DNA from: Procambarus clarkii
Taxonomy: Eukaryota > Arthropoda > Malacostraca > Decapoda > Cambaridae
Length of the DNA: 64,000 nt
NCBI RefSeq assembly: GCF_040958095.1
Contig: NC_091220.1
Location: 22,300,439-22,364,438 of the forward strand
Reading direction: 5' to 3'
Part shown: positions 6,910 through 63,742 of the stretch, one piece after another
How the letters are laid out: each line of letters opens with the position of its first letter
How positions within the stretch are numbered: position 1 is the stretch's first letter
Notes under the pieces: generated by a model
Told to the model about the DNA's origin: nothing
The model's database searches: none
What the model saw: only the letters and a program-made list of their open reading frames with translations
Translations under genes and position numbers: made by a program

Positions 6910-6910
6910 C

Positions 6911-35967: not shown

Positions 35968-36162
35968 TGGAGGAGACAGCTGGTTGCCCGGAGTAGATGG
36001 TAGCAGTATCAGTTGAATTATATAAATATCAAGTAGTCGCAGGCTACTCTCACATTTTACATCCACTGACGGCCAACCAACACAAGCTTCGCTACTCTTC
36101 CATCCAATAGAAATTTAGTAGCCACATTCTTAGTAATATTTGGAATATTCAGGTGTACAAAG
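35968..36162 (+). repeat. 195-bp inverted repeat, left copy (family A promoter and leader)
   Basis: Matches 62319-62513 in reverse complement with only a few mismatches. It contains TATATAAATATC (about 36021-36032) and the leader ending GGAATATTCAGGTGTACAAAG that precedes family A start codons. Homology on both sides stops at the same outer base (TGGAGGAGACAG), so it may be a terminal repeat or a duplication boundary. Confidence 0.9.
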
Positions 36163-36661
36163 TGTGATGATATATGTTGTATTAGGCTAGGAAACCTTGA
36201 CCGAATTTATCATTTAAATTCGGCGAAGAGCGAATTAATTGCTCGAATAGTGGCGAAAGAATACGGATCATTTTATGTAGAAAAGGTAAACCGCGTACTT
36301 TTCATAACCCGAAATCCCCATCTCTTTATGGACCTCATTCAAATGGGAGAAAAGGAAGAAATCTGTCATTTTATTATAGAAGACGAAGGTTTATCATCAT
36401 CACCACCACCAATTTGTGAATTCCTTTTTGGATATTACTAGAATGGGATATTGGACCATGGCCTGCTTACGTAGAGCAATCAACACCAACCGTAATATTC
36501 CTCATTTATTTAAACTCCAATTAATCAACGAAGTTCAACGGAATCTAATGATTAGATCGTGGGAAAGAGTAGTGGCAGATGAATTGAATCAAAACAATTT
36601 TTCAAAAAAAAATCACCAGGCCTTAGAGAGAATATCATTAGGATGTTATGATTGGTTGTAA
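36157..36661 (+). pseudogene. Family A pseudogene, 5' deletion joined to C-terminal third
   Basis: The family A leader runs straight into codons from the KCDDICC region, so roughly the first 300 codons are deleted. The frame continues through NLDRIYHLNSAK, FITRNPHLFMDLIQ and EDEGLSSSPPP. A second deletion then removes the segment before the FVNS motif and shifts the frame, and the tail resumes at 36416 (ITRMGYW...EVQRNLMIRSWERV). The end extends to 36661 with an alternative tail. It is the inverted partner of the intact copy at 60955-62307. Confidence 0.85.
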
Positions 36662-36740
36662 CGGAATAAAAATCTGGAGAGGATTGAACAAACTGACAAA
36701 ACCATTAAAAAATATCTCTCATCATTATTTCATGATAATT

Positions 36741-36929
36741 AAATTTAATGTGGGAATCATTAATATTATCATTTATTAACTTGTATAACTTATAAACTAT
36801 AAATAATTATCTTATTAGATTATGTCTCAGGGGTAAATAATGTAATCCAGGAATTTTTTTGGTGTTAAATTTTTCATTATTTATATGTTCGATATCTATA
36901 TTAATGAAAAGTTCCTCTTTTTTGTTCAT
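36741..36929 (-). pseudogene. Truncated inverted copy of the 320-aa gene (N-terminal 60 codons)
   Basis: The minus strand from the ATG at 36929 reproduces the beginning of the gene at 40493 with few differences, including one that breaks the frame. At 36741 it jumps to the 3' flank of that gene (36642-36740 matches 41455-41550), so about 775 bp are deleted. The inverted homology also extends upstream of the start to about 37198. Confidence 0.8.
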
Positions 36930-37198
36930 ATTTTTTAAAATCCTTTAAATATTCAATTCTAATACTTTCTCGAAATGATCTGCCCTAGCAACAAATAGGG
37001 AATTAATTATTGGCTAAGATTTATCGTCATATGAATTTTTTATTATATATTTGTGATAGAATTTAATCAAATAAATCCCAATAACATATGGTCTTTGTTT
37101 CAAGGTTATCTGACCATGGCATAGACAAACAAAGACTACTTTTTTTTTTCCGTGGCATAACGTGTCGATGTTAATGTACTATTAGATCAAAGATCAAA

Positions 37199-37385
37199 GT
37201 GACTGACTGAACTCTGGCCGATGGTAGATTTAACCAGTTCAGTTATCATTTTCTGCACTTCAGAAGAGTTCATCATTTGAATAAAAGGTTACTAAAATAT
37301 GTTCTCGTTTTTGGTTAATGAATGGATGGATAGTTAGTGAAATTCTAAATTTTTATTACTTTTATACTTCTTGTCAATTTGTTTT
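37199..37385 (-). pseudogene. Family B fragment with internal deletion
   Basis: On the minus strand the family B 5' leader (GAAGTATAAAAG type) and a short N-terminal piece (TFYSNDEL) are joined directly to the C-terminal piece (MITELVKSTIGQS). About 100 codons are missing and there is no usable start. Confidence 0.7.
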
Positions 37386-37524
37386 TCCTAATTTGTGATA
37401 ATATTTGCTGAAAACTTTGTTCTGGTTGAATCTATACTTAAATTTTTTTTCACACTCATTGTACATAAAGGGATTTACTCCTACTAACATTCGGAATACT
37501 CATTTGCACAAAGGTTTTAAAACC

Positions 37525-38931
37525 ATGGTATCCATGTTTCCCTTTAAATCTTTTACATCTTCGATTACATCAAGTTCCCAAATAAAAAAATATGTAGACA
37601 AATATTTTTCAATTGGTTTAAATATTACTTTAGAACCATCTATAAGTAAATTAATACAATTTAACCCCCAAATTGTAAATGTTTATGCTATTAAAATATG
37701 GATGGGATCTACTCAAGAAGGATATCCTGCGGCATCCCAATTGCAATTTATACTGCGAGTCTTATTTAATGAGGCTGAAAATTATTGTTCTTATATGTTT
37801 GTAGAATTCTTCTCTAACATTGACCAAAGAAGCATTATGTTCTGTGAACATAATTTCAAGTACCCCCGTGATCCGGATTACTTAATATTGCCTATCAAGG
37901 GATATAGGTCCTACGCCAAAGATCCTTCCATATTTCTAATGATGATACAAGCTTCCAAGCAGGAACGAGAAGCTCTGAGAGAGATGATGATAGCAGACGG
38001 AATATCGATTCCATCGTCATGTAGCAAAGTTGATCAGGCAGCGCTGAAAAAGCTTATGTCTATAAAACAATATTTGAATCGGCATTATTATTTCAGGCAC
38101 ATGATGTTTAAAAATATACGTTGGGAATTAACCCGAGATGTGAGAGCTTACGAAGCATGGTTTAAAAATAAAAAATGGCTTAAATACGTTAATCGAAGGA
38201 TGATTCGACATAAACCCTATTGTTTACATGATGGGAAGGCATATTATCATCACAAGCCTCGTCAAGATATAATTTATAGGGACCCCAACTATAAACGTTG
38301 TTATCCTTATGGGGTACCCGAATATTGTAATAAATGGCCTAAAAATTATACATTTCGGGTTTTCAGTGATGGTGATAAAAAGTGTGATGATATATGTTGT
38401 ATTAACATAGGAAAGCTTGACAGAATTTATCATTTAAATTCTGCGAAGAGAGAATTAATTGCTCGAATAGTGGCGAAAGACTATGGATCCTTTTATGTAG
38501 AAAGGGTAAACCGCGTACTTTTCATAACCCGAAATCCCCATCTCTTTATGGACCTCATTCAAACGGGAGAAAAGGAAGAAATCTGTCGTTTTATTATAGA
38601 AGACGAAGGTTTATCATCATCATCATCACCACCACCTCCATGTAAAAACACCTACAAGCCAAATAGTTTGCAGGCAATGTGCGTCAATCAATTTGTGAAT
38701 TCCTTTTTGGATATTAATAGAATGGGATATTGGACCGTGGCCTGCTTACGTAGAACAATCAACACCAACCCTAATATTCCTCATTTTTTAAAACGCCAAA
38801 TAATCAATGAAGTTCAACGGAATCTAATGATTAGATCATGGGAAAGAGCAGTAGCAGATGAAACAACTACTGAACTTTTATTTCAAACGCACCACAGACC
38901 CCGAGATGAGATACATTGGCAAATTGGATAG
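37525..38931 (+). CDS. Family A protein, intact copy 1, 468 aa
   Basis: I place the start at ATG 37525 in ACCATGG context, which is conserved in most copies; the frame is open upstream without an ATG. Conserved blocks in order: FPFKSFTSSITSSSQI near the N-terminus; VNVYAIKIWMGSTQEGYPAA; QLQFILRV; SNIDQRSIMFC; GYRSYAKDPSIFLMMIQASKQ; DGISIP; LNRHYYFRHMMFKNIRWELT; RVFSDGDKKCDDICC; FITRNPHLFMDLIQ; a poly-Ser/Pro hinge encoded by a TCA microsatellite; then NSFLDINRMGYW and NLMIRSWERAV. No known domain, signal peptide or membrane span is recognised. The C-terminal tail is longer than in the other copies (LFQTHHRPRDE). A family B gene follows on the same strand. Confidence 0.78.
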   Translation: MVSMFPFKSFTSSITSSSQIKKYVDKYFSIGLNITLEPSISKLIQFNPQIVNVYAIKIWMGSTQEGYPAASQLQFILRVLFNEAENYCSYMFVEFFSNIDQRSIMFCEHNFKYPRDPDYLILPIKGYRSYAKDPSIFLMMIQASKQEREALREMMIADGISIPSSCSKVDQAALKKLMSIKQYLNRHYYFRHMMFKNIRWELTRDVRAYEAWFKNKKWLKYVNRRMIRHKPYCLHDGKAYYHHKPRQDIIYRDPNYKRCYPYGVPEYCNKWPKNYTFRVFSDGDKKCDDICCINIGKLDRIYHLNSAKRELIARIVAKDYGSFYVERVNRVLFITRNPHLFMDLIQTGEKEEICRFIIEDEGLSSSSSPPPPCKNTYKPNSLQAMCVNQFVNSFLDINRMGYWTVACLRRTINTNPNIPHFLKRQIINEVQRNLMIRSWERAVADETTTELLFQTHHRPRDEIHWQIG

Positions 38932-38940
38932 CGATCACTA

Positions 38941-39102
38941 TTCATACATTTTGTATGGTTTAGTGACGGTGATGACCACTGCCATTTAATGAAACTCGTT
39001 CACATGTCCAAAACAGTAGTGACATATTTATTGGGATTGTGTAAGAGACACAAAGCACTGTGTAGTATTTTAAGTTATTTTACTGAATTGATTATGTTAT
39101 AA
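38941..39102 (+). pseudogene. Orphan family A-like C-terminal tail, copy 1
   Basis: A 53-codon open stretch reads HFVWFSDGDDHCHLMKL then SKTVVTYLLGLCKRHK and ends in TAA. WFSDGD matches RVFSDGD of family A, but the following part differs. A second copy with synonymous and conservative changes is at 48555. There is no start codon; it appears to be the 3' end of a lost, more distant paralogue. Confidence 0.5.
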
Positions 39103-39249
39103 AATATATTTGTTTATTATTCTTATAATAAATAAATCTTGAAGTTAGGAGCAAATGCTAAAAGTATAAATAAAAACCATTGATGAATCTTAATAATGTA
39201 ATAATGCCAAACCAATTAATTCACATATTTCTTTACATTACAAAGGAAA

Positions 39250-39365
39250 CATAAGTAACTGAATGGGCTCTGGCCGAAATCAAGGCCTTTAAAAACGTAT
39301 TCGTTTTTCGTTTTGTATAGATCCTGTTGATCATTTCATTTACTGACGACGTCATTATACTTGGC
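39250..39365 (-). pseudogene. Family B scrambled fragment
   Basis: Minus-strand pieces of family B are joined out of context: the N-terminal MTSSVNEMIN codons with their upstream leader, then a short middle piece and the C-terminal SGQS-type flank. It is too rearranged to encode protein. Confidence 0.55.
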
Positions 39366-39604
39366 TTCAATGCCCCCACCATCATTATTACCCCCTCCTC
39401 TCATATTATTTGAGATAACTAAAATTAAGTCAAATGGTATAAAAAGGGGAACTAATTATTATTAAAAGTACAAGTTTTCAACAACTATTGTCACTAATTA
39501 GAAATTAAATTTTTGTAAGAAGTGTATAAAAGTAATAAAAATTTAGAATTTCACTTAACTATTACATTCATTTGCCCAAAACGAGCACAGTAATAATAAG
39601 TATA

Positions 39605-40146
39605 ATGACGTCGTCAGTAAACGAAATGATCAACTATATTTTATTCTTTAGAAAAGAGTATGATGCTGTAAAACTTAAACATATCTTAGTAACCTTTTAT
39701 TCAAATGATGAACTCCTAGCTACCAAAAAAATTTTGGTATCATGTAATAATGGTAAGTGAGTGGCCATATGGAATTAGACGAATTTAATTATCCACATAA
39801 GATGGATTACAATGATCTATACAAAAAGAAAGACGACCACGTTACTTCTATTTTTAAAGGCCTTGATTACCTGGAAACCGAAGGTAGATTACCGAAACCT
39901 TCAATAGATTTGAGTAAATATCCCCAATATGAATTAACCACCCATATAACTGTTATTGAGGTGCTAACTAAATTGTCGAGGCTTCAAGATAATGTGGATC
40001 ATTTACAAAATGTTGCCTTGCGACTAACGGAAGAAGTACGTAACTCTGAAATACAGAAAATGATAACTGAACTGGTTAAATCTACCATCGGCCAGAGTCC
40101 AGTCAGTCACTTAAGTTCCCTTTCTAATGTAAAGAATGATATGTGA
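39605..40146 (+). pseudogene. Family B copy 1, interrupted
   Basis: The ATG at 39605 begins MTSSVNEMINYILFFRK; a TATAAAAG box lies at 39525-39532. A small indel at the acidic GDEWP position gives TGA at 39758. The frame resumes at 39757 through LDEFNYP, GLDYLETEGRLPKPSIDL, the coiled-coil LSRLQDNVDHLQNVALRLTE and the HLSSLSNV tail to 40146. The break looks like AATGGTAAGTGAG, a fortuitous splice-donor-like site; other copies show it is an indel, not an intron. Confidence 0.8.
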
Positions 40147-40492
40147 ATTAATTGGTTGGGCATCATTACATTATAGTATAGTATAAGATTCATCATGTGT
40201 AGGGGGGTGAAGGGGGTAGGATTTAGAGTCTTTGATCTAATAGTACATTAACATCGACACGTTATGCCACGGAAAAAAAAAAGTAGTCTTTGTTTGTCTA
40301 TGCCATGGTCAGATAACCTTGAAACAAAGACCATATGTTATTGGGATTTATTTGATTAAATTCTATCACAAATATATAATAAAAAATTCATATGACAATA
40401 AATCTTAGTCAAAAATTAATTCCCTATTTGTTGCTAGGGCAGATCATTTCGAGAAAGTATTAGAATTGAATATTTAAAGGATTTAAAAAAAT

Positions 40493-41455
40493 ATGAACAA
40501 AAAAGAGGAACTTTTCATTAATATAGATATCGAACATATAAATAATGAAAAATTTAACACCAAAAAAATTCCTGGATTACATTATTTACCCCTGAGACAT
40601 AATCTAATAAGATACTTATTTATAGCTTATAAGTTATACAAGTTAATAAATGATAATATTAATGATTCCCACATTAAATTTAATTATCCGCCCAATCTTA
40701 GCAGAAGACAGTTAATTTATTGGAAAATTTACGATATGTCAGGATTAACAGCTGATAATAAATTTATCTGGTATGAAAATTTTTTTACACAATTTCACAA
40801 TCAGGATATTGTAATTGACGAAGATTTTGGGGTATATTCCCCATTTAAAATTGAAGAGGCCAAAATGATAATATATATTAATACTGTGGTAGATTTATGG
40901 TTTTTTCTTTTAGATGGGGTAAGAAATGTGGAACAAAGTTTAAGTGAGTATATTATTAGAAATTGTTTAACTTATGAACAAACATTGGAAGTAAACAAAA
41001 AATCAATTACAAATATTGATATGTACATTAAAATCGATGAAGTCGTGAGATATGATGAGAATATAATTGAGCATCTCATTAGTAATTATGAAAAAAATAA
41101 TAATTGGTCAAAACTAAGAAATATATCACTATCTACAGCGTGGGACATGCATTGTGATTTATTAGAACAATTTACTAGTATTATTAATAAAATTAAAAAT
41201 CCAATAGAAACAATACCAAGAGATGCCAAATTTTATTCTTATCTTTCCCCTGATTATGTAGTAACTAAAATGGTGGCTTACCTCTCACAAAAAAGGGAAA
41301 ATATTACTATTTGGAAAAATCAGTACCAAAATTATTCCATTAAAAAGAATGGAATTATAAAAAAGATGAGAAATCGGGGGGTGTTGAAAGATCAAGTTGT
41401 AGAAAGGGAGGTAGAAGAAGAAGAAGAAGACAAAGATTACATTTGTACAACATAG
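40493..41455 (+). CDS. Hypothetical protein, 320 aa, with an acidic tail
   Basis: Starts at ATG 40493, intronless and very AT-rich. No known domain is recognised. Near residues 245-268 it has KFYSYLSPDYVVTKMVAYL, a motif shared with the 206-aa protein at 43021 (NFYSVLFPPYIVTKLEYL), so the two are probably distant paralogues. The C-terminus is basic (KKNGIIKKMRNRG), then a run of seven acidic residues (EEEEEDKD). A truncated inverted copy of its first 60 codons lies at 36741-36929. It sits between family B copy 1 and the 104-aa gene. Confidence 0.65.
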   Translation: MNKKEELFINIDIEHINNEKFNTKKIPGLHYLPLRHNLIRYLFIAYKLYKLINDNINDSHIKFNYPPNLSRRQLIYWKIYDMSGLTADNKFIWYENFFTQFHNQDIVIDEDFGVYSPFKIEEAKMIIYINTVVDLWFFLLDGVRNVEQSLSEYIIRNCLTYEQTLEVNKKSITNIDMYIKIDEVVRYDENIIEHLISNYEKNNNWSKLRNISLSTAWDMHCDLLEQFTSIINKIKNPIETIPRDAKFYSYLSPDYVVTKMVAYLSQKRENITIWKNQYQNYSIKKNGIIKKMRNRGVLKDQVVEREVEEEEEDKDYICTT

Positions 41456-41762
41456 CAATGATGAAATAATGATGAAAGATATTTGTAATGGTTATGTCAG
41501 TTTGTTCAATCTTCTCCAGATTTTTATTCCGTTACAACTTTCCAATCATAACATCTTGATGATAAAACTAAACCTTTAATAATGAATGATGACAAAACTA
41601 AACATTTAATAATGAATAATTCATTCAAATAGATAATCACTTTTGAGCCTAGAATTAGAAAAACAAACTAAAAGTTGTAAAGAAGGATGAGCTTTAGTCA
41701 AAAACTAATCTGGTATTAGGGAGACAGGGGAAACCTGGCAAGGATAACCTTGGAAAGGACGT
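41456..41762. other. 3' flank shared with an inverted copy at 36642-36740
   Basis: 41455-41550 is the source of the inverted fragment. The rest has short direct repeats (ACTAAAC..TTTAATAATGAAT). No gene. Confidence 0.5.
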
Positions 41763-41770
41763 TATATAAA
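41763..41770 (+). promoter_or_regulatory. TATA box for the 104-aa gene
   Basis: TATATAAA lies about 105 bases upstream of the ATG at 41876, with a CATTCTAG-type initiator about 35 bases further on. Form and spacing match the boxes at 42659 and before family B genes. Confidence 0.5.
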
Positions 41771-41875
41771 GAGACTCCGACAACTTGGCGGTCCACATTC
41801 TAGAACTAACTAAGTACAGTCGTCACAACCAAAAAGTGCAGTATAGGATTTGCCCATTAGAGTCATAAGTCAATT

Positions 41876-42190
41876 ATGAACCAACAACCCCATCTTCATC
41901 CTGTAGACGATTGCTTGCTGGAATATTCCAGAACTGTATCTGGTTGTAGCAACATAGATCCTATTCGCCTACTAAATATTTGGAACAGCCTCAGGGTCGA
42001 TAACAACCTTCGCCCAATAAATATAACACCGGACACTCTGAACATAATTGACCCAAATCGGTTTCCTATCGACAACCCAACTTTACATGCTCCTGAGACA
42101 TCCAATCCCCCCCTCCCATTATCTTGTCCACCAATCCAAAGTCCCCCAATTACTCCAGCTGAACTCTGTAACAATCACCTCATCAACTAA
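41876..42190 (+). CDS. Small Pro-rich hypothetical protein, 104 aa
   Basis: Starts at an ATG downstream of a good TATA box. The C-terminal half is Pro-rich (SNPPLPLSCPP, SPPITPAELC); the N-terminal half holds DPIRLLNIWNSLRVDNNLRP. No domain is recognised. Its stop overlaps the ATG of a 39-codon ORF (TAATG), which hints at coupled translation or a frameshifted longer protein. Confidence 0.5.
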   Translation: MNQQPHLHPVDDCLLEYSRTVSGCSNIDPIRLLNIWNSLRVDNNLRPINITPDTLNIIDPNRFPIDNPTLHAPETSNPPLPLSCPPIQSPPITPAELCNNHLIN

Positions 42191-42309
42191 TGATCTTAAC
42201 CCACCCTCTAAGAGAACATAGAAAATCGATTAGATCAGCAGAAATAACAAGATCCAACAGTGACAATGATTCATCTGAAAAATCGTCCAAAAGTGGAGTG
42301 GACTCATAG
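42190..42309 (+). CDS. Possible Ser-rich micro-ORF, 39 aa, overlapping the upstream stop
   Basis: The ATG at 42190 shares one base with the TAA of the 104-aa gene (TAATG). It encodes a basic then Ser/Asp-rich stretch (RSNSDNDSSEKSSK) and stops at 42307. It could be a separate small gene, or the original C-terminus of the 104-aa protein after a frameshift. Neither can be decided without a homologue. Confidence 0.3.
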   Translation: MILTHPLREHRKSIRSAEITRSNSDNDSSEKSSKSGVDS

Positions 42310-42575
42310 GATGAAAAATCTCCAGATCAAGTAAGTAATTATCAAAAGGTATCAAAGCCGAGGAAGAAAAAAATATTGTTTAAAATAGGTGGTAAAAGAA
42401 CTGTAAATTATCTGAACATAGCAAAAATCATAGTGTTGATTTTAAACATTACTGGACAATGTTGATGATTTAGTAGTTGGGGTGTTGATAACCAGTGGTG
42501 ATGATGGTGATGGTGGCTAAAGTCGAGGGGTGCTTGGGATATATATAGCTGAGCGGAAAGGGTTTAAATATTTGG

Positions 42576-42601
42576 GAGAGAGAGAGAGAGAGAGAGAGAG
42601 G
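42576..42601. repeat. (AG)n microsatellite
   Basis: Short pure AG run in the promoter-side region of the 206-aa gene. Confidence 0.9.
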
Positions 42602-42658
42602 TGACATCATATTTTAAAGGATGTGGTAACGTCAGATGATAACAAAACTTGTCCAGAG

Positions 42659-43020: not shown

Positions 43021-43641
43021 ATGAAAGAAGTCTCTCAACATCGCTGTCGTCGTTCACGTCGATCGAAGAATGATAAATATCTTCTACCCCAGAAAATAAA
43101 AAGAGAGGATGCCCAGAGGTATGGACAACTTGGTAACAAAAATTGTGGCCCACATATGAACCCCTATAGATGGATGGTTGGTTTTAATACTGAAGAAAAG
43201 AAAGGAAGGATCTTAAGGAGCAAACCATGTTCTTATATATGCACCTTATTTATCACATTCGATCCATTTAATCCACATGAAGATGGACTATTAGACTGGG
43301 ATATTAACATTGAGATAGAACGTAATTTAAATACATCCTGCCTTGAAATTCAATTTGAAGGCAAGGATTCAGAATGTGATTTTGTGGATCTGAGAGGACA
43401 TTTTGGACTAACTGATCTCAAGGAGATATTTAAAAGAATAATATATATTCTCCCAGAAGTCGAGCTATCCAAAATATTCAAAATAATCCCATCCTTTAAA
43501 GATAAAAAGGTTTTAAAGCATACTGAAAAGATTAAAAGTCTTTTCACAATTGAAAAGTATAGGTGTAGATTTGCAAATTTTTATAGTGTATTATTCCCAC
43601 CTTATATTGTTACTAAACTGGAGTATTTGCTTGGTAAATAA
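43021..43641 (+). CDS. Hypothetical protein, 206 aa, paralogue of the 320-aa protein
   Basis: Starts at ATG 43021, immediately after the acceptor-like tract. The N-terminus is very basic (HRCRRSRRSKNDK), suggesting nucleic-acid binding or nuclear targeting. The middle has an acidic DPFNPHEDGLLDWDINIEIE stretch. The C-terminus carries NFYSVLFPPYIVTKLEYL, which matches KFYSYLSPDYVVTKMVAYL in the 320-aa protein at 40493. No known fold is recognised. Confidence 0.6.
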   Translation: MKEVSQHRCRRSRRSKNDKYLLPQKIKREDAQRYGQLGNKNCGPHMNPYRWMVGFNTEEKKGRILRSKPCSYICTLFITFDPFNPHEDGLLDWDINIEIERNLNTSCLEIQFEGKDSECDFVDLRGHFGLTDLKEIFKRIIYILPEVELSKIFKIIPSFKDKKVLKHTEKIKSLFTIEKYRCRFANFYSVLFPPYIVTKLEYLLGK

Positions 43642-45891: not shown

Positions 45892-47553
45892 ATGTCAGTC
45901 TACGATGACATAACCATGGCACAACTAGCCAGATTAATAAGACCATGGAGAACTTTTATATCTTCGATTAAATACGACGATGAACTAACAAGAATGATAT
46001 ATCTATATTATGCCGATAGACTTGATATTACTCTGGAATTACATTGCAATGTACCACCACCAATGGTACATCGTGTGCATAAAACATACAGTGTATCAAT
46101 AACGCCCGTAACTCTTTATTCGATAAAATTTTGGATGGGAACGAATAAAAAAGGGTATCCCGTGGCATCACAATTGCAATTTATAATGCGAGTTATGGTA
46201 ACTGACAGGAAAACGGGAAAATATTATTATTTGTTTGTAGAACTTATCACTAACCGCGACGAACGGCGTTCTGACGATGATACAAGCGTCTAACGAAGAA
46301 AGAGAAGCTCTGAAAGAGATGATGAGAGCCGATGGAATAAGAATCCCTTTATCATCATCATCATCATCATCTTATTCATATAATAAAGTTTGTCAAACTG
46401 CAAAAGAGAAGCTTTTGAGATTGAAACGATATTTCAATCGACATTATTACTTTAGGTATATGATGTTCGACAATATACAGTGGGAATTAACCAGAGATGC
46501 TATTGCTTTCGAAGCCTGGTTATATGGCCAAGAATGGTCTGAATACGCTCATGAAAAGAGAATTCAACACGAAAAATATTGCTTGTTCAACGACAGAGAG
46601 TTTCAACTAACAAAGTTGCACATGAAACCCAGTTTTAAGTTTTTTTTAGAAGGTTCGTGCATATGTATGACTGTGGGAAAATTGGTTACACCATACTTTG
46701 GAATAAGGACACTACTACCACATATCGGGTATTTAGCGATTGTGAGGAAGAATACTCTGAAATTTTTTGTGGTACTGATCATTTATTAAATCACGTCGAC
46801 AGAGTGTATCATGTGAATCAATTTGGTAACTGGTGGCATGATGATGGTGATGGAAGAAACATGGAACCATGTGTGAATTCATATGGTGAACTAATTGCAC
46901 GCATGCATGTGAAAAATTATGGAAAAATTTATTTCGAAATGATCATAGTAACTTATAGCACCCCATTCGACGTACTATCTGAATGTATTCTTTTTCTAAC
47001 CCGAGATCTCAAACTCTTTGTGGATATTATTCAAACGGGGAACAAGGATGAAATTTATAGTTTTATCGTTCGAGACGAGGGTTTATCAACATCTCCGCAC
47101 AAATATGACAATCGTTTACGAGCTATATGTACTCGGGCAGTTATAAGTTATTTTTTGGATGTTAGAACAACAGAATGGGGTTGGACAGCGGCCACTCTGT
47201 GCGAAGAAATGGTTTCCACCCTCCAGATCCCGGATTCCTTTAAATATCAATTTATCGATGATGAACTTAAATGGAGTCTAATGGTTAGTTCCTGGAAGAG
47301 AGCCGTGGAAGATTTGACATTAGATGATAATATAGCTGAACGGAGCAAGGCTGCATTTATGGCTAAATCGCAAAAACTGGATAAATTGATAGATGAAAAA
47401 ATAGCGGTCACACTGGAGTACTTGAGCCAGCAGGGATGTCTTGATGAGTTGGATATATATACATTATTTTATGCTTCTTTAGTAAAAGATCCTATTATAA
47501 ACTTGGATTATGCTTCTTTGGCCATAATATGGGGAACCATTAAAGAACAATAA
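45892..47553 (+). pseudogene. Family A divergent copy, broken into three frames
   Basis: This is the most complete divergent family A gene. The ATG at 45892 opens a frame with FWMGTNKKGYPVASQLQFIMRV. At about 46275 roughly 35 codons (the CEHNF-to-SIFL segment) are deleted with a frame change. A second frame from 46277 (MIQASNEEREALKEMM, DGIRIP, a poly-Ser run, YFRYMMFDNIQWELT) shifts again near 46655 into the frame ending 47553 (YRVFSDCEEE, LTRDLKLFVDIIQ, SLMVSSWKRAV). The tail extends about 80 residues beyond the other copies. Divergence shows it split off before the recent A expansion. Confidence 0.8.
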
Positions 47554-47568
47554 ATGAGGGCGCTGGGG

Positions 47569-47690: not shown

Positions 47691-47691
47691 G

Positions 47692-50644: not shown

Positions 50645-50945
50645 ACATTAGATAGGGAACTTAAGTGACTGACTGGATTCTGGCCGATGATAGATTTAAC
50701 CAGCTCAGTTATCATTTTCTGTATTTCAGAGTTTTACGTACTTCTTCCGTTAGTCGCTAGGCAACATTTTGTAAATGATCCACACTATCTTGAAGCCTCG
50801 ATAATTTAGTTAGCAACTCAATACCAGTTATAAGGGTGGTTAATTTATATTTGGGATATTTAGCAAAATCTATTGAAGGTTTCGGTAATCTACCTTTGGT
50901 TTCCAGGTAATTAAGACCTATAAATAGGTGCTGAAAACTTGTACC
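50645..50945 (-). pseudogene. Family B fragment (C-terminal two-thirds)
   Basis: Minus strand: NYLETKGRLPKPSIDFAKYP, the THITGIELLTKLSRLQDSVDHLQNVA region, then a frameshift near 50745 and MITELVKSIIGQS. The N-terminal third is missing, and the fragment is fused to the tail of the adjoining family A gene. Confidence 0.7.
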
Positions 50946-52369
50946 TATCGTATCCCTCATTAATTTCTACCGGAAATTCAGTAGTTGTTTCATCTGCTAC
51001 TGCTCTTTCCCAAGATCTAATCATTAGATTCCGTTGAACTTCATTGATTATTTGGCGTTTTAAAAAATGAGGAATATTAGGGTTGGTGTATATTGCTCTA
51101 CGTAAGCAGGCCACGTTCCAATATCCCATTCTATTAATATCCAAAAAGGAATTCACAAATTGATTGACGCACATTGCCTGCAAACTATTTGGCTTGTAGG
51201 TGTTTTTACATGGAGGTGGTGGTGATGATGATGATGATGATGATGATGATAAACCTTCGTCTTCTATAATAAAACGACAGATTTCTTCCTTTTCTCCCGT
51301 TTGAATGAGGTCCATAAAGAGATGGGGATTTCGGGTTATGAAAAGTACGCCTTTTACCCTTTCTACATAAAAGGATCCATAGTCTTTCGCCACTATTCGA
51401 GCAATTAATTCTCTCTTCGCAGAATTTAAATGATAAATTCGGTCAAGGTTTCCTAGCCTAATACAACATATATCATCACACTTTTTATCACCATCACTGA
51501 AAACCCGAAAAATAGAATCTCTATCCCGCCAGTCATTACAATATTTGGGTACCCCCAAACGAGATCTAATTTCATAGTTGGGGTCCCTATAAATTATATC
51601 TTGACGAGGCTCGTTATAAAAAAATCCATCATGTAAACACTTGACGAGGCTCGTTATAAAAAGATCCATCATGTAAACAATAGGGTTTATGTTGAATCAT
51701 CCTGCGATTAACGTAGTTAAGCCATTTTTTATTTTTCAACCATGCTTCGTAATATCTCACATCTCGGGTTAATTCCCAACGTATATTTTTAAACATCATG
51801 TACCTAAAATAATAATGCCGATTCAAATATTGTTTGAGGGACATAAGCCTTTTCACCGCAGCCTGATCAACTTTACAAAATGAAGATGGAATCGATATTC
51901 CATCTGCTATCATCATCTCTCTCAGAGCTTCTCGTTCCTGCTTGGAAGCTTGTATCATCATCAGAAATATGGAAGGATCTTTGGCGTAGGACCTATATCC
52001 CGCGATAGGCACTATTTCCGGATCATGGGGATACTTGAAATTATGTTCACAAAACATGATGCTTCTTTGGTCAATGTTAGAGAAGATTTCCAAAAACCTA
52101 TAGGAACAATAAAATTTTCCATCCTCCTCATTTGCGACTCGCAGTATAAATTGTAATTGGGATGCCGCAGGATATCCTTCTTGTGTAGATCCCATCCATA
52201 TTTTTATAGCATAAACATTTACAATTTGGGGTTTAAATTCTATTTGATTTATAAATGGTTCTAAAATAATATCTGTACCATATGAACCATATTTGATGAT
52301 ATATTTCATTATTTGGGAATATGATGTAATCGAAGATGTAAAAGATTTCAAGGGAAATATGGATACCAT
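50911..52369 (-). pseudogene. Family A copy broken by a 40-bp tandem duplication
   Basis: Starts at ATG 52369 (ACCATGG). The reading frame is intact to about 51640, where 40 bp (TTGACGAGGCTCGTTATAAA block, at 51601 and again at 51641) are duplicated in tandem and shift the frame after YCLHDGSF. The downstream part continues open to 50911 with DIIYRDPNYEIR, RVFSDGDKKCDDICC, the longest poly-Ser hinge of the family (about nine Ser), and a novel tail after ERAVADETTTEF. It is a recent lesion: everything else is conserved. Confidence 0.85.
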
Positions 52370-53792
<1,423 letters not shown>

Positions 53793-54332
53793 ATGACGAC
53801 GTCAGTAAATGAAATGATCAACTTTATTTTATTCTTTAGAAAAAAGTATGATACTACAAAACTTAAAAATATTTTAGTAACCTTTTATTCAAATGATGAA
53901 CTCCTAGCAACCAAAAAAATAGTGGCATCATGTAATAATGGTGATGAGTGGCCATATGAATTAGACGAATTTAATTATCCAGATATGATGGATTACAAAG
54001 ATCAATACAAAACGAAAGAGAAACACATTACTTGTATTTTAAAAGGTCTTGATTACCTGGAAAACAAAGGTAGATTACCGAAACCTTCAATAGATTTGAG
54101 TAAATATCCCCAATATGAATTAACAACCCATATAACTGGTATTGAGGTGCTAACTAAATTGTCGAGGCTTCAAGATAATGTGGATCATTTACAAAATGTT
54201 GCCTTGCGACTAACGGAAGAAGTACGTAACTCTGAAATACAGAAAATGATAACTGAACTGGTTAAATCTATCATCGGCCAGAGTCCAGTCAGTCACTTAA
54301 GTTCCCTATCTAATGTAAAGATTGATATGTGA
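53793..54332 (+). CDS. Family B protein, intact copy, 179 aa
   Basis: The ATG at 53793 is followed by MTTSVNEMINFILFFRKKYD. Blocks: LKNILVTFYSNDELLATKKI, an acidic EWPYELDEFNYPDMMDYKDQ, GLDYLENKGRLPKPSIDLSK, then a predicted coiled coil (about residues 120-165: LSRLQDNVDHLQNVALRLTEEV, MITELVK) and a Ser-rich HLSSLSNV tail. No known family is recognised. TATATAAG is at 53725-53732. Transcribed away from family A at 52369, with a second B gene following on the same strand. Confidence 0.72.
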   Translation: MTTSVNEMINFILFFRKKYDTTKLKNILVTFYSNDELLATKKIVASCNNGDEWPYELDEFNYPDMMDYKDQYKTKEKHITCILKGLDYLENKGRLPKPSIDLSKYPQYELTTHITGIEVLTKLSRLQDNVDHLQNVALRLTEEVRNSEIQKMITELVKSIIGQSPVSHLSSLSNVKIDM

Positions 54333-54400
54333 ATTAATTAATTGGGCATTATTACATTATTTAGATTCATCAATGTTTTTTTTAGCATTTGCTCCCATCC

Positions 54401-55541: not shown

Positions 55542-56831
55542 TCAGTCCACTGCTTTTTCCCAAGATCTAATCATTAGATTCCGTTGAACTTCGTTGATTA
55601 ATTGGTGTTTAAATAAATGAGGAATATTAGGGTTGGTGTTGATTGCTCTACGTAAGCAGGCCACGTTCCAATATCCCATTCTATTAATATCCAAAAAGGA
55701 ATTCACAAATTGATTGACGCACATTGCCTGCAAACTATTTGGGTTGTAGGTGTTTTTACATGGAGGTGGTGGTGATGATGATGATGATGATGATGATAAA
55801 CCTTCGTCTTATATAATAAAACGACAGATTTCTTCCTTTTCTCCCGTTTGAATGAGGTCCATAAAGAGATGGGGATTTCGGGTTATGAAAAGTACGCGTT
55901 TTACCTTTTGTATATAAAATAATCCATATTCTTTTGCCACTATTCGAGCAATTAATTCGCTCTTCGCCGAATTTAAATGATAAATTCGGTCAAGGTTTCG
56001 TAGCGTAATACAACATATATCATCACACTTTTCATCACCATCACTGAAAACCCGAAATGTATAATCTGGAGACCATATATTATAAATTCCATCTTGAGAC
56101 ACGTCATGAAAATATTCATCATATAAACAATAGGGTCTATGTTGAATCATCCTGTGATTAACGTAGTTAAGCCATTTTTTATTTTTCAACCATACTTCGT
56201 AATATCTCAAATCTCGGGTTAATTCCCAACGTATATTTTTAAACATCATGTACCTAAAATAATAATGCCGATTCAAATATTGTTTGAGGGACATAAGCCT
56301 TTTGAGCGCACCCTGATCAACTTTACAAAATGACGATGGAATCGATATTCCGTCTGCTATCATTATCTCTCTCAGAGCTTCTCGTTCCTGATTGGAAGCT
56401 TGTATCATCATCAGAAATATGGAAGGATCTTTGGCGTAGGACCTATATCCCGTGATAGGCAATTTTAAGTAATCCGGATCATCGCAATACTTGAAATTAT
56501 GTTCACAGAACATGCTGGTTCTTTGGTCAATGTTAAAGAAGAGTTCCACAAACATATAAGAACAATGATTTTCATCCTCCCTAACTACGACTCGCAGTAT
56601 AAATTGTAATTGGGATGCCGCAGGATATCCTTCTTGAGTAGATCCCATCCATATTTTTATAGCATAAACATTTACAATTACAATTTCTTGTCGCTTTAGT
56701 CTTAAATTAATTATACATAGTTCTAAAGTAATATCTACACTATGCGAACATGATTGGTCTAAATATTTTTCTATTTGGGAACTTGATGTAATCGAAGATG
56801 TAAAAGATTTAAAGGGAAATATGGATACCAT
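55542..56831 (-). pseudogene. Family A copy with one premature stop
   Basis: The ATG at 56831 (ACCATGG) opens 340 codons with all conserved blocks. A single base change turns the Glu codon of the FIIEDEGL motif into TAA (55809-55811). Beyond it the frame stays open through the Ser/Pro hinge, NSFLDINRMGYW and MIRSWEKAV to a stop at 55542. The segment between CLYDEYF and YTFRVFSDGD is shorter than in other copies. The lesion is recent. A 340-aa product lacking the C-terminal quarter would still be made if transcribed. Confidence 0.85.
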
Positions 56832-57383
56832 GGTTTTAAAAAGTTTGTGCAGCTGAATATTCCAAATGTTAGTAGGAATGTGGCTACTAAATTTCTATTT
56901 CTATATAATATATATAACCTTGGAATTGTTAAATGAAATTAAAAAAAAAAAAAAAAAGGAGGTAAAAATGTTAACTGATCAACTATTTGTGAGTACATTC
57001 AAGCCAAAAAAAAAACCCTTTATGTGCAATGAGTAAGAAAAAAAAAATAAGTACAGATTCAATGAAAACAAAGTTTTCAGTAACTATTGTCACAAATTAA
57101 TTAGCAAGAAGTATAAAAGTAATAAAAATTTAGAATTTCACTAACTATCCATCCATTCAACCAAAAAGGAGAACACATAAATTTACGTAGGGGGATGGGT
57201 CAGCTGGACTTCTCTTTGTGCAGTTTCTTTTACTAAAAACACTACATTTTCGCTGGGAATCGGCATATTGTCTTATAAGGCGGTGCTAATTAGAAATAAA
57301 ATTTGGGCAAGAAGTGTATATAAGTAATAAAAATTTAGAATTTCACTTAACTATTCCATTCATTTACCAAAAACGAATACATA
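56832..57383. promoter_or_regulatory. Head-to-head intergenic region of module 2 (A at 56831, B at 57384)
   Basis: Contains the family A leader, A-rich runs, and a 128-bp block (57173-57300, ACGTAGGGGGATGGGTCAGC) that also occurs at 54612-54740. TATATAAG for the B gene is at 57317-57324. The spacer is shorter than in modules 1 and 3 and of partly different sequence. Confidence 0.55.
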
Positions 57384-57938
57384 ATGACGTCGTCAGTAAA
57401 TGAAATGATCAACTATATTTTATTCTTTAGAAAAAAGTATGATACTGCAAAACTTAAAAATATTTTAGTGACCTTTTATTCAAATGATGATTTCAAAACT
57501 ACCAACAAAATAGTGAAATCATGTAATAATGGTGACGAGTGGCCAAAGTGGCCATTGGGATATGAAGAATTAGACGACTTTAATTATCCAGATATGGATC
57601 GTCGCTATAAATACAAAACGAAAGAGAAACACATTACTTGTATTTTAAAAGGTCTTGATTACCTGGAACCAAAAGGTAGATTACCGAAACCTTCAATAGA
57701 TTTGAGTAAATATCCCCAATATGAATTAACCACCCATATAACTGTTATTGAGGTGCTAACTAAATTGTCGAGGCTTCAAGATAGTGTGGATCATTTACAA
57801 AATGTTGCCTTGCGACTAACGGAAGAAGTACGTAACTCTGAAATACAGAAAATGATAACTGAACTGGTTAAATCTACCATCGGCCAGAGTCCAGTCAGTC
57901 ACTTAAGTTCCCTTTCTAATGTAAAGATTGATATGTGA
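57384..57938 (+). CDS. Family B protein, intact copy, 184 aa
   Basis: Like the 53793 copy, but five residues longer because the acidic/Trp segment is partly repeated (EWPKWPLGYEELDDFNYP) and the DMMDYKDQ part reads DMDRRYKYK. All other blocks are conserved, including the coiled coil and HLSSLSNVKIDM end. ATG 57384, TATATAAG at 57317-57324. Converges on the broken family A gene at 58297-59716. Confidence 0.72.
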   Translation: MTSSVNEMINYILFFRKKYDTAKLKNILVTFYSNDDFKTTNKIVKSCNNGDEWPKWPLGYEELDDFNYPDMDRRYKYKTKEKHITCILKGLDYLEPKGRLPKPSIDLSKYPQYELTTHITVIEVLTKLSRLQDSVDHLQNVALRLTEEVRNSEIQKMITELVKSTIGQSPVSHLSSLSNVKIDM

Positions 57939-57984
57939 ATTAATTGGTTGGGCATTATTACATTATTAAGATTCATCAATGTTT

Positions 57985-58084
57985 TTTTTAGCATTTGCTC
58001 CCATCCAATATCCCATTCTAGTAGTATCCAAAAAGGAATTCACAAATTGATTGACGCACATTGCCTGCAAACTATTTGGGTGCC
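57985..58084 (-). pseudogene. Family A C-terminal scrap
   Basis: About 33 codons of the SLQAMCVNQFVNSFLDTTRMGYW region on the minus strand, joined directly to a family B N-terminal fragment at 58085. Confidence 0.75.
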
Positions 58085-58270
58085 ACTATTTTTTTGGTTG
58101 CTAGGAGTTCATCATTTGAATAAAAGGTTACTAAAATATTTTTAAGTTTTGTAGTATCATACTTTTTTCTAAAGAATAAAATAAAGTTGATCATTTCATT
58201 TACTGACGTCGTCATTATGTATTCGTTTTTGGTAAATGAATGGAATAGTTAAGTGAAATTTGAAATTTTT
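58085..58270 (-). pseudogene. Family B N-terminal fragment with leader
   Basis: Minus strand: leader (TTAAAT...CGAATACATA), the ATG and about 40 codons (MTTSVNEMINFILFFRKKYD, LLATKK), then truncated at the A fragment. The leader and TATATAAG (about 58280) remain. Confidence 0.75.
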
Positions 58271-58296
58271 ATTACTTATATACTTCTGGCCAAAAT

Positions 58297-59716
58297 TTAA
58301 TTTCTAATTAGCGACCCATAAATATCATACCTTTGGTTTCCCTCATTAATTTCTACCGGAAATTCAGTAGTTTTTTCATCTGCTACTGCTCTTTCCCATG
58401 ATCTAATCATTAGATTCCGTTGAACTTCATTGATTATTTGGCGTTTTAAAAAATGAGGAATATTAGGGTTGGTGTTGATTGTTCTACGTAAGCAGGCCAC
58501 GGTCCAATATCCCATTCTATTAATATCCAAAAAGGAATTCACAAATTGATTGACGCACATTGCCTGCAAACTATTTGGCTTGTAGGTGTTTTTACATGGA
58601 GGTGGTGGTGATGATGATGATGATGATGATAAACCTTCGTCTTCTATAATAAAACGACAGATTTCTTCCTTTTCCCCCGTTTGAATGAGGTCCATAAAGA
58701 GATGGGGATTTCGGGTTATGAAAAGTACGCCTTTTACCTTTTCTACATAAAATGATCCGTATTCTTTCACTACTATTCGAGCAATTAATTCGCTCTTCGC
58801 CAAATTTAAATGATAAATTCGGTCAAGGTTTCCTAGCCTAATACAACATATATCATCACACTTTTTATCACCATCACTGAAAACCCGAAAAATAGAATCT
58901 ATATCCTGCCAGTAATTACAATATTTGGGTAGCCCCAAACGAGATCTAATTTCATAGTTGGGGTCCCTATAAATTATATCTTGACGAGGCTCGTTTAAAA
59001 AAAGATCCATCATGTAAACAATAGGGTTTATGTTGAATCATCCTGCGATTAACGTAGTTAAGCCATTTTTTATTTTTCAACCATGCTTCGTAATATCTCA
59101 CATCTCGGGTTAATTCCCAACGTATATTTTTAAACATCATATACCTAAAATAATAATGTCGATTCAAATATTGTTTGAGGGACATAAGCCTTTTGAGCGC
59201 AGCCTGATCAACTTTACAAAATGACGATGGAATCGATATTCCGTCTGCTATCATCATCTCTCTCAGAGCTTCTCGTTCCTGATTGGAAGCTTGTATCATC
59301 ATCAGAAATATGGAAGGATCTTTGGCGTAGGACCTATATCCCGCGATAGGCATTATTAAGTAATCCGGATCATGGGGATACTTGAAATTATGTTCACAGA
59401 ACATGATGCTTCTTTGGTCAATGTTAGAGAAGATTTCCAAAAAACTATAGGAACGATAAAATTTTCCATCCTCCCTAACTGCGACTCGCAGTATAAATTG
59501 TAATTGGGATGCTGCAGGATATCCTTCTTGAGTAGATCCCATCCATATTTTTATAGCATAAACATTTACAACTTGGGGTTTAAATGGTATTAGATTTATA
59601 AATGGTTCTAAAATAATATCTATACCATATGAACCATATTTGATGATATATTTCATTATTTGGGAATATGATGTAATCGAAGATGTAAAAGATTTCATGG
59701 GAAATATGGATACCAT
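58297..59716 (-). pseudogene. Family A copy with a homopolymer frameshift
   Basis: Start ATG 59716 (ACCATGG). The frame is intact to about 59000, where a run of seven T/A gives a one-base shift at the GSF/NEPRQ junction; the downstream frame (DIIYRDPNYEIR to ERAVADEKTTEF) is open to 58297. It is very close to the 50911-52369 copy, and the two share the altered tail. The 40-bp duplication of that copy is absent here, so the lesions are independent. Confidence 0.85.
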
Positions 59717-60257
59717 GGTTTTAAAAGCTTTGTGCAATTGAATTTTCCGAATGTTAGTAGGAGTGTGGTTACTAAATTTATATTTCTATACATTATAACT
59801 TTAGAACTGTTAAATAAAATTAATATACACATATTAATAATATAAATTAATATACAATGATATTCTTCAATTGGTCAATAATAGCATGAATCGTGTGAAA
59901 AAAAAATGAGGTAAAAATGTTTGCTGATCAACTGAATCAACCAGGCTGAATATTTGAAGTCACTCAGCAACAAAAAAAGCCCATATGTGTGATGAAGACA
60001 GTTGTATTTTTTTATATTGTGTTAAAGATGAAAGAAGACCAAGAGCATTCTCAATAAAATATTGAGATAACAAAAATTGCGGTTATTTAGTATTAGGTCG
60101 AAGGGTATAAAAAGGGGAATTAATCATTATCAAAAGTACAAGTTTTCAGCAACTATTGTCGCTAATTAGAAATTAAATTTTGGCCAGAAGTATATAAGTA
60201 ATAAAAATTTAGAATTTCACTTAACTATTCAATTCATTTACCAAAAACGAATACATA
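59717..60257. promoter_or_regulatory. Head-to-head intergenic region of module 3 (A at 59716, B at 60258)
   Basis: Nearly identical to the two ends of the module 1 spacer, without its central 880 bp. TATAAAAAG near 60107 and TATATAAG at 60191-60198 serve family B; the family A leader (ACTCCTACTAACATTCGG) lies at the other end. Confidence 0.55.
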
Positions 60258-60812
60258 ATGACGTCGTCAGTAAATGAAATGATCAACTATATTTTATTCT
60301 TTAGAAAAAAGTATGATACTGCAAAACTTAAAAATATTTTAGTGACCTTTTATTCAAATGATGATTTCAAAACTACCAACAAAATAGTGAAATCATGTAA
60401 TAATGGTGACGAGTGGCCAAAGTGGCCAATGGGATATGAAGAATTAGACGACTTTAATTATCCAGATATGGATCGTGACTATAAATACAAAACGAAAGAG
60501 AAACACATTACTTGTATTTTAAAAGGTCTTGATTACCTGGAAAACAAAGGTAGATTACCGAAACCTTCAATAGATTTGAGTAAATATCCCCAATATGAAT
60601 TAACCACCCATATAACTGTTATTGAGGTGCTAACTAAATTGTCGAGGCTTCAAGATAGTGTGGATCATTTACAAAATGTTGCCTTGCGACTAACGGAAGA
60701 AGTACGTAACTCTGAAATACAGAAAATGATAACTGAACTGGTTAAATCTACCATCGGCCAGAGTCCAGTCAGTCACTTAAGTTCCCTTTCTAATGTAAAG
60801 AATGATATGTGA
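60258..60812 (+). CDS. Family B protein, intact copy, 184 aa
   Basis: Nearly identical to the 57384 copy (PKWPMG versus PKWPLG; DYKYK versus RYKYK; LENKG versus LEPKG). ATG 60258, TATATAAG at 60191-60198. Blocks as in the other B genes: MTSSVNEMINYILFFRK start, TFYSNDDFKTTNK, GRLPKPSIDL, coiled coil, HLSSLSNVKNDM end. It converges on the intact family A gene at 60955, with about 140 bp between the stops. Confidence 0.72.
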   Translation: MTSSVNEMINYILFFRKKYDTAKLKNILVTFYSNDDFKTTNKIVKSCNNGDEWPKWPMGYEELDDFNYPDMDRDYKYKTKEKHITCILKGLDYLENKGRLPKPSIDLSKYPQYELTTHITVIEVLTKLSRLQDSVDHLQNVALRLTEEVRNSEIQKMITELVKSTIGQSPVSHLSSLSNVKNDM

Positions 60813-60954
60813 ATTAATTGGTTGGGCATTATTACATTATTAAGATTCATCAATGTTTTTTTTAGCATTTAATCCCAACTTTAGATTTATTTATTATAAG
60901 AATAATAAACAAATATTTTCAATTCAGTAAAAAACAATTTCATTGAATTTGTTC

Positions 60955-62307
60955 TTAAAAAAATAAAAGTTCAGTAGTTGGTTCATCTGCCACTGCTCTT
61001 TCCCACGATCTAATCATTAGATTCCGTTGAACTTCGTTGTTTAATTGAGGTTTAAATAAATGAGGAATATTAGGGTTGGTGTTGATTGCTCTACGTAAGT
61101 AGGGCACGGTCCAATATCCCATTCTAGTAGTATCCAAAAAGGAATTCACAAATTGATTGACGCACATTGCCTGCAAACTATTTGGGTTGTAGGTGTTTTT
61201 ATATGGAGGTGGTGGTGATGATGATGATGATAAACCTTCGTCTTCTATAATAAAACGACAGATTTCTTCCTTTTCTCCCGTTTGAATGAGGTCCATAAAG
61301 AGATGGGGATTTCGGGTTATGAAAAGCACGCGTTTTACCTTTTCTACATAAAATGATCCGTATTCTTTCACCACTATTCGAGCAATTAATTCGCTCTTCG
61401 CAGAATTTAAATGATAAATTCTGTCAAGGTTTCGTAGCGTAATACAACATATATCATCACACTTTTCATCACCATCACTGAAAACCCGAAATGTATAATT
61501 TTCAGGCCATTTATTACGATATTCGGGTACCCCCAAAACACGAGAATTAGATTCAAATTTATGGTTGGGGTCCCTATAAATTATATCTTGACGAGGGTAG
61601 CTATGACAACTTTCTATTAAACAATAGGGTTTATGTTGTTCCATCCTGCGATCAATGAAGTTAAGCCATTTTTCATTTTTCAACCATGCTTCGTAAGCTC
61701 TCAAATCTCGGGTTAATTCCCAACGTATATTTTTAAACATCATGTACCTAAAATAATAATGCCGATTCAAATATTTTTTGAGGGACATAAGCCTTTTCAG
61801 CGCACCCTGATCAACTTTACAAAATGACGATGGAATCGATATTCCGTCTGCTATCATTATCTCTCTCAGAGCTTCTCGTTCCTGATTGGAAGCTTGTATC
61901 GTCATCAGAAATATGGAAGGATCTTTGGCGTAGGACCTATATCCCTTGATAGGCAATTTTAAGTAATCCGGCCTGAAATTATGTTCACAGAACATGATGC
62001 TTCTTTGGTCAATGTTAGAGAAGAATTCTACAAATATATAAGAACAATAATTTTCATCCTCCCTAACTGCGACTCGCAGTATAAATTGTAATTGGGATGC
62101 CGCAGGATATCCTTCTTGAGTAGATCCCATCCATATTTTAATAGCATAAACATTTACAATTTTGTGTTTAGTTGGTCTTAATTTAATTATAGATGGTTCT
62201 AATGTAATATTTATATCAACTGAACAATATTTGTCTACATATTTTTTTATTTGGGAACTTGATATAATCGAAGATGTAAAAGATTTAAAGGGAAATAATG
62301 ATACCAT
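60955..62307 (-). CDS. Family A protein, intact copy 3, 450 aa
   Basis: Start ATG 62307 (ACCATGG); the frame is open upstream through the leader without an ATG. Uninterrupted blocks: FPFKSFTSSIISSSQI, VNVYAIKIWMGSTQEGYPAA, SNIDQRSIMFC, GYRSYAKDPSIFLMTIQASNQ, LNRHYYFRYMMFKNIRWELT, DIIYRDPNHKFE, RVFSDGDEKCDDICC, FITRNPHLFMDLIQ, a five-Ser/four-Pro hinge, SFLDTTRMGYW and NLMIRSWERAV, ending LLFF. Its promoter and leader are the right copy of the 195-bp inverted repeat. The partner at 36157-36661 is a deletion derivative of the same gene. Function is unknown. Confidence 0.78.
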   Translation of the reverse strand: MVSLFPFKSFTSSIISSSQIKKYVDKYCSVDINITLEPSIIKLRPTKHKIVNVYAIKIWMGSTQEGYPAASQLQFILRVAVREDENYCSYIFVEFFSNIDQRSIMFCEHNFRPDYLKLPIKGYRSYAKDPSIFLMTIQASNQEREALREIMIADGISIPSSFCKVDQGALKRLMSLKKYLNRHYYFRYMMFKNIRWELTRDLRAYEAWLKNEKWLNFIDRRMEQHKPYCLIESCHSYPRQDIIYRDPNHKFESNSRVLGVPEYRNKWPENYTFRVFSDGDEKCDDICCITLRNLDRIYHLNSAKSELIARIVVKEYGSFYVEKVKRVLFITRNPHLFMDLIQTGEKEEICRFIIEDEGLSSSSSPPPPYKNTYNPNSLQAMCVNQFVNSFLDTTRMGYWTVPYLRRAINTNPNIPHLFKPQLNNEVQRNLMIRSWERAVADEPTTELLFF

Positions 62308-63413: not shown

Positions 63414-63740
<327 letters not shown>

Positions 63741-63742
63741 AT

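Follow-up and report, generated by a model that had tools for sequence, protein, structure and literature searches.

Gene accordions of large DNA viruses are best known from laboratory poxviruses. In the poxviral K3L arrays, the tandem copy number differs and sequence is exchanged between copies (Sasani et al. 2018, PMC6115191). Among endogenous viruses, the majanivirus Nimav-1_LVa (Bao et al. 2020, PMC7016691) carries multigene families of unknown function, including PF1, with ten members that have no conserved domain and are in part clustered near one end of the linear genome, and PF3, with four members, three of which have 421-469 amino acids (aa). The endogenous nimaviruses SiNMV and CdNMV of sesarmid crabs (Kawato et al. 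2023, PMC10871703) are multicopy and inserted in (AT/TA)n, and 31 nimaviral core genes are counted in that work. The present analysis concerns a 64-kb stretch of the Procambarus clarkii genome (C71:22300439-22364438; hereafter the window, to which positions without prefix refer), part of an assembly of 4.03 Gb in 2308 contigs. In this window two gene families, A and B, are repeated near the right terminus of a multicopy element. The A/B array is probably a gene accordion, located terminally in a large endogenous DNA virus, that would serve to diversify host-facing proteins.

The locus shares with the K3L arrays a differing tandem copy number and exchange between copies; the K3L arrays were followed in free virus under experimental evolution, whereas the present arrays lie in many integrated copies and consist of a divergent two-gene unit (PMC6115191). 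With Nimav-1_LVa it shares multigene families of unknown function, PF1 and PF3 being comparable to A and B by description only; unlike here, neither a divergent two-gene unit nor copy-number variation between integrated copies is described in the material on that virus (PMC7016691). SiNMV and CdNMV have a GC content of 44%, in contrast to about 0.33 here, and no terminal A/B array is described in the sections of that paper used; the likeness comes from the insertion site and the terminal repeat (PMC10871703). No divergent array similar to A/B was found in crustacean endogenous viruses among the titles and abstract openings searched, which is no proof of absence. Because many sibling copies are present in one genome, and their arrays differ where compared, growth, exchange and patchwise diversification of the array could become readable and datable. 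With this locus, the endogenous large DNA viruses of the crustacean type gain orphan families, a gene for cytochrome c and a style of insertion by terminal repeats, and the array is probably a reservoir of rapidly changing genes with a presumed action on the host.

The copies were inventoried from lists of open reading frames (ORFs), DNA self-comparison and tblastn. Family A occupies 11 places within 29.5-62.3 kb and family B ten places in the window, three being intact in each family; an earlier note on this DNA had counted at least nine A and nine B copies, relics included, and its positions and pairs agree with the present ones. The DNA identity between copies is mostly 82-98%; pieces of the divergent 45892 gene are lower, at 67-77%. 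Therefore, the two-family pattern is not due to chance. The intact A genes are A37525 (37525-38931, plus strand, 468 aa) and A49170 (49170-50495, plus, 441 aa), both found in the ORF list and by tblastn, and A62307 (62307-60955, minus, 450 aa from the ATG), the upstream region of which is unlike that of other copies. A52369 (52369-50974, minus) and A59716 (59716-58360, minus) have mid-gene frame breaks, and A56831 (56831-55548, minus) is frameshifted with a frame of 340 aa; all three were again found by both approaches. Four further places were located by tblastn: a relic with 38% aa identity (29842-29549, minus), two fragments (54613-54369 and 58094-57975, both minus) and a divergent member of about 37% aa identity that is broken into pieces (45892-47550, plus). 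The last A place is a fragment at 36160-36634 (plus), downstream of a segment (35968-36162) in common with the A62307 upstream region.

The intact B genes are B53793 (53793-54332, 179 aa), B57384 (57384-57938, 184 aa) and B60258 (60258-60812, 184 aa), which like B54829 (54829-55369, with a frameshift near the 3' end) are on the plus strand and were found in the ORF list and by tblastn. The other B places, also found by tblastn, are fragments at 37311-37196 (minus), B39605 (39605-40146, plus), which has a broken frame, fragments at 39277-39221 and 58215-58081 (both minus), and two 3' fragments on the minus strand, of which one (49046-48833) is 5'-truncated and abuts the upstream region of A49170, and the other (50919-50629) is tail-to-tail with A49170.

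All these places go back to a single divergent A-B unit, about 2.6 kb long, which has been repeated, partly inverted and eroded. The right half is a tandem run of this single unit, in the order A52369(-), B53793(+), B54829(+), A56831(-), B57384(+), A59716(-), B60258(+) and A62307(-), interspersed with small fragments of A and B. In the self-comparison, segments 50942-52589 and 53468-54397 match 58328-59934 and 59935-60877, at 93.5% each; thus the block was duplicated whole, and one copy has an insert at 52590-53467. The left half is an inverted unit. A B-side spacer in inverted orientation (37297-37476) lies upstream of A37525, and the B fragments at 37311-37196, which are part of a stretch of B remnant and B-side spacer (37196-37476), are head-to-head with this gene. 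A37525 was therefore once head-to-head with a B that has been lost, and the tandem of A37525 and B39605, recorded in the earlier note, is secondary.

In the divergent spacer at 56832-57383, the ends are conserved among copies and the middle differs: the first ~110 and the last ~100 bases are conserved elsewhere at 83-94%, and the middle recurs in some copies only. A second such spacer lies at 59717-60257. A TATA-like motif is found at -65 to -68 in four of the five B genes examined and at -80 in the fifth; among six A genes it is found at -66 to -92 in four, at -155 in A62307, and nowhere within 160 bases in A37525. From these motifs both ends of the A/B spacer are predicted to be promoters. 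A62307 and the fragment at 36160 have a common, different upstream segment (97% over 195 bases in the self-comparison), which looks like promoter exchange. At one fetched locus (L031:2327-3607, minus), the C-terminal half of A is fused in frame to a whole B, apparently via a deletion.

The tandem copy number, by which an accordion is recognised, differs between the genome copies compared (the window, C31 and C9), the differences being seen directly at C31 and C9 only. At C31, an additional 10 kb on the right repeats A(-)B(+) units. At C9 (38.06-38.10 Mb), about 18 successive A copies follow each other at a period of 2.07 kb, each with a B 3' remnant only, which argues against intact B being required. 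The 'constant pairing' of the earlier note is thus not general. Its view of the pair as the unit of amplification is upheld, because spacer, genes and tails repeat as one block and C31 has more of them; its suggestion that the products work together is weakened, both by the C9 run of A with truncated B and by the tracing of the pairing to one duplicated block, an outcome that the note itself had named, together with a lack of co-expression, as refuting.

The last 300 bases at the right end of the element (62935-63234, minus) were scored at 40 genomic places of 1072 candidates. A scored A copy lies within 60 kb of 21 of the 40 termini, where 0.11 is expected, and in 20 of these 21 cases on the inner side. 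The nearest scored A is 4.7-36 kb from the terminus at these 20 termini; since the scored A may differ in paralogue between sites, this range reflects array length indirectly. At C5:56830782-56842387, two right termini in opposite orientation are separated by 11.6 kb and enclose a scored A, which makes this a rearranged or head-to-head copy.

The A/B block belongs to an element repeated dozens of times across the genome. In the genome scan for family A, 95 places were scored of 1836 candidates, which is a lower bound; they represent 64 sites on 45 contigs, and 71 of the 95 are without an internal stop. Nine further sites, chosen for holding A, were fetched (C31, C6, C52, C71:21.1 Mb, C9, C78, C58, C445 and C20). 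B and an A45892-type gene are present at all nine, and the array therefore likely predates the spread of the element. At least one of three anchor ORFs, all on the plus strand, is found at five of the nine sites with 96-100% aa identity over most of its length. The ORF at 40493-41455 (320 aa) has about 97-100% aa identity at C31, C6, C71:21.1 Mb and, in part, C78; that at 41876-42190 (104 aa) has 96-100% at five of the nine sites; and that at 43021-43641 (206 aa) has 97-99.5% over most of its length, also at five, with a 68-residue piece at C9. No anchor ORF was seen in the other three fetched stretches. At C31 the element extends to the left beyond the 29.3-kb junction of the window, with further intronless ORFs. 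These encode, among others, a complete divergent A protein (456 aa), a phosphatase of the NIF type (396 aa; Pfam, 1.2e-11) and the pair of paralogues described next.

Near a NIF-type phosphatase, two paralogues of 697 and 592 aa that are 47% identical are encoded at L032:1433-3526 (minus) and 3573-5351 (plus). They match no Pfam family above the cut-off and are candidates for structural proteins. Left of the sampled part of the element, L033 (C31:457001-466900) contains a long minisatellite with coding-like repeat frames.

The reading frames of the intact copies have been kept. In the three pairwise comparisons of the intact A genes, all 16 indels are multiples of three, versus one of six in non-coding duplicates; the pairs are not independent, and one pair alone gives eight of eight (p 0.003). 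In a neutral simulation of the three intact A genes, a mean of 7-11 stops arose, and none of 1000 runs at each setting was stop-free. The peak and the spread of change along both A and B are above those of every simulation (0 of 1000). Such uneven change could stem from selection, from exchange among copies, or from the two together.

The ratio of amino-acid-changing to synonymous change (pN/pS) was derived from the intact frames of the window and the fetched loci, 39 distinct ones for A and 25 for B. Along the A alignment it is 2.1-2.9 at columns 241-300 and 0.29-0.55 at columns 151-210. The central excess, tested in the three intact copies alone, is modest (p 0.014, for a region picked post hoc). 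Hardly any synonymous change is seen at columns 361-420 (0.025 and 0.004), and this suggests that copies have exchanged sequence. Exchange is also supported by a mosaic synonymous divergence in two of six comparisons: that of A37525 differs between 5' and 3' parts against A52369 (p 0.007) and against A59716 (p 0.013), and the comparisons of A49170 and A62307 display no such difference (p 0.2-1).

Neither family had been recognised in the earlier note, and this is borne out by the searches of Pfam, NCBIfam, PHROG and the PDB, none of which gave a significant match. Pfam gave no family above the cut-off for A or B; for NCBIfam and PHROG the queries were P0003 (family A) and B57384 (family B), and all matches were at chance level or below the cut-off; and the best PDB match to the A alignment was 0.031. 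Among about 5.8 billion proteins, three relatives of family A were found (P0001, P0002 and P0003), and for family B there were 47 candidates, none at an expectation value (E) of 0.001. P0003 (591 aa) is an intact relative of the broken 45892-47550 gene, the pieces of which match it at 97.6, 95 and 94%, and P0002 has 44% identity to A49170. P0001 is 99% identical to A37525; its source may be the same species or a close one, and its interpretation as spread to another organism was dropped. The scans of IMG/VR viral contigs and of GTDB gave no relatives; the queries without a relative in the viral-contig scan were A, the kinase-like, RING and macro-like ORFs of the window, the 697/592-aa pair and a polymerase. 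The confidence of the predicted structures (predicted local distance difference test, pLDDT, 36.6 for A and 49.7 for B) is too low for a fold search, and the model of B is all-helical at low confidence. By their sequences, A and B are orphan families.

The element ends on the right with a terminal repeat (63206-63234; GTCGTACCTAATAGCCAGAACTCACTTCT on the reverse strand), which adjoins an (AT)n run at 63235. This right end is seen in the window and at L013, L022 and L031. The terminal repeat of the sesarmid-crab nimaviruses, also next to (AT/TA)n, starts with GTTGTGCCTAATAAGG (PMC10871703). Over the first 13 bases, GTTGTGCCTAATA of SiNMV and CdNMV and GTCGTACCTAATA of the element agree at 11. 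Among 146 flanks of AT runs in the window and the fetched loci, nine match at 10 or 11 of the 13 bases, all of this end type, and the next best matches at seven. The copy of the repeat at L031:8125 was considered as a left end of the element and rejected, for it belongs to a different element of about 390 bp. Flanks of (TAACC/GGTTA)n, which would indicate insertion of the telomere type, were not found on the right, the flank that was sampled, which is (AT)n; a single two-unit TAACC occurs at 62554, inside the element.

In a search with Pfam DNA_pol_B, 93 places were scored of 165 candidates. The matches are of two types, long and short by matched length, each in many copies, which suggests two related large elements. 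At 16 of the 64 A sites a DNA polymerase B is found no more than 250 kb away, compared with 0.74 expected, two of the 16 sharing one polymerase, and at 14 of the 16 the nearest polymerase is 115-232 kb from the array. The one polymerase examined has a family B and an exonuclease domain and is distant from solved ones (best 8.6e-15). The viral reading is based on this co-location of DNA polymerase, on the style of the genes and on the termini. The element is probably a large DNA virus that has become endogenous, possibly a nimavirus-like one. The profile of the per os infectivity factor (PF04583) had no match, and it likewise had none in the control genomes.

Several results weigh against an accordion in an endogenous virus, and they are considered here with the alternatives to which they lend themselves. 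A and B might be an obligate two-component system, either subunits of one complex or a matched pair, co-expressed from a divergent promoter and amplified to keep their doses matched. In favour of this are the head-to-head units with TATA-like motifs on both sides, the intact frames kept in many copies of both families (39 distinct A, 25 distinct B) and, at L031:2327-3607, the in-frame joining of a 3' portion of A to B. This explanation is nevertheless unlikely in view of the run of about 18 A copies at C9 with B remnants only and of relics of a single family alone, and the fusion itself looks like a deletion product within a broken A. The array would be neutral debris if a dead viral segment had been tandemly duplicated by the host after endogenisation, without selection. 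The overall pN/pS is only about 1.1 (A 1.08, B 1.14), many copies are broken, and neutral drift once the element had inserted could also give a ratio close to 1, with the uneven variation arising from exchange between copies. Moreover, the excess of amino-acid changes in the three intact A genes depends on the assumed transition bias (kappa), being reached by 193, 6 and 1 of 1000 runs at kappa 1, 3.5 and 6, respectively, and the excess for B is not significant (397, 136 and 82 of 1000). Neutral debris is quite improbable all the same, considering the indel sizes and the stop-free intact copies, an unevenness along A that is unmatched by any neutral run (1000 per setting), and the presence of B and the same neighbour at all nine A-bearing sites fetched, according to which the array is likely older than the spread.

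The remaining alternative concerns the element, which might be a giant DNA transposon, Ginger2-like or Polinton-like, that acquired genes and was never a virus. Small elements in (AT)n, about 390 bp long (L022:2042-2430 and L031:8125-8513) and possibly mobilised by the integrase of the big element, bear the terminal repeat of the latter as well, and the full published nimavirus repeat agrees at only 23 of 46 bases (PMC10871703). Together these two facts indicate that the terminal repeat marks a type of transposase and does not by itself mark a virus family. The set of near-identical polymerases consists mostly of frames of 1,210-1,234 codons or shorter, compared with 2455 aa for the polymerase of Nimav-1_LVa (PMC7016691, Table 3), and the common length of about 1,200 codons would suit a transposon; single frames of 1456, 1631 and 2638 codons are also present. 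The left end of the element was not seen in the sequence sampled, and the window itself is without a viral hallmark gene. These points are opposed by the dense array of ORFs without introns, among which are RING-like, macro-like and NIF-phosphatase-like genes, and by the distance of 115-232 kb between polymerase and array at 14 of the 16 linked sites, which is far above the size of a Polinton. Polintons measure 15-40 kb. A transposon that was never a virus is thus given a low probability, comparable to that of neutral debris.

Under the preferred reading of a viral accordion, A-B units would multiply by unequal recombination and swap segments, each pair being driven, as predicted, from opposite ends of one spacer. 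A, in which variable patches are set between conserved blocks, would be a fast-evolving protein of virus-host interaction, and B, if the all-helical model of low confidence holds, may be its neighbour or helper. Host defence would be the selective force on the array. The virus likely inserted by means of a Ginger2-like integrase, as in the sesarmid-crab nimaviruses. A wider reading may be put forward tentatively, as one that is possible and on balance doubtful: the element could represent an undescribed lineage of giant terminal-repeat endogenous DNA viruses, with transposon-like spread in (AT)n, a terminal A/B accordion and a captured cytochrome c, and its dozens of copies would be parallel snapshots of an expanding, recombining and diversifying array.

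Left of the array, the window contains other ORFs of the element. A divergent ORF of 398 aa (31010-32206, minus) is possibly protein-kinase-like (Pkinase, E 0.28, below the cut-off), and its product is also found on 11 contigs in the protein database. It is followed by a macro/phosphatase-like ORF of 235 aa (32526-33233, plus; PHROG 335 'phosphatase', 1.2e-7; DarG, 0.022, below the cut-off) and a RING-finger-like ORF of 419 aa (33668-34927, plus; Pfam zf-RING_UBOX, 6.9e-4, below the cut-off). An intact, intronless cytochrome c ORF of 104 aa lies at 35533-35847 (plus; Pfam, 7.2e-16; PDB cytochrome c, 1.4e-49), and within 35533-35930 it is followed by AATAAA and a run of 15 A. It occurs at the same place in two of three other element copies probed (L037 and L039). 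The C31 copy has 99.9% DNA identity, the fetched stretch at C71:21.13 Mb contains residues 1-74, and that at C6 contains none. It is probably a host gene that arose from an mRNA and travels with the element. A literature search on viral cytochrome c turned up, among the records consulted, only work on marine metagenomes.

The left 26 kb of the window contain a Ty3/gypsy-like frame, a transposase zinc-finger frame and satellites, among them a 260-bp satellite at 5164-14724 that forms two opposed arrays of 6.7 and 30 copies. Past the (AT)n run, at 63740-64000, lies a frame that we take to resemble a Penelope-type GIY-YIG endonuclease.

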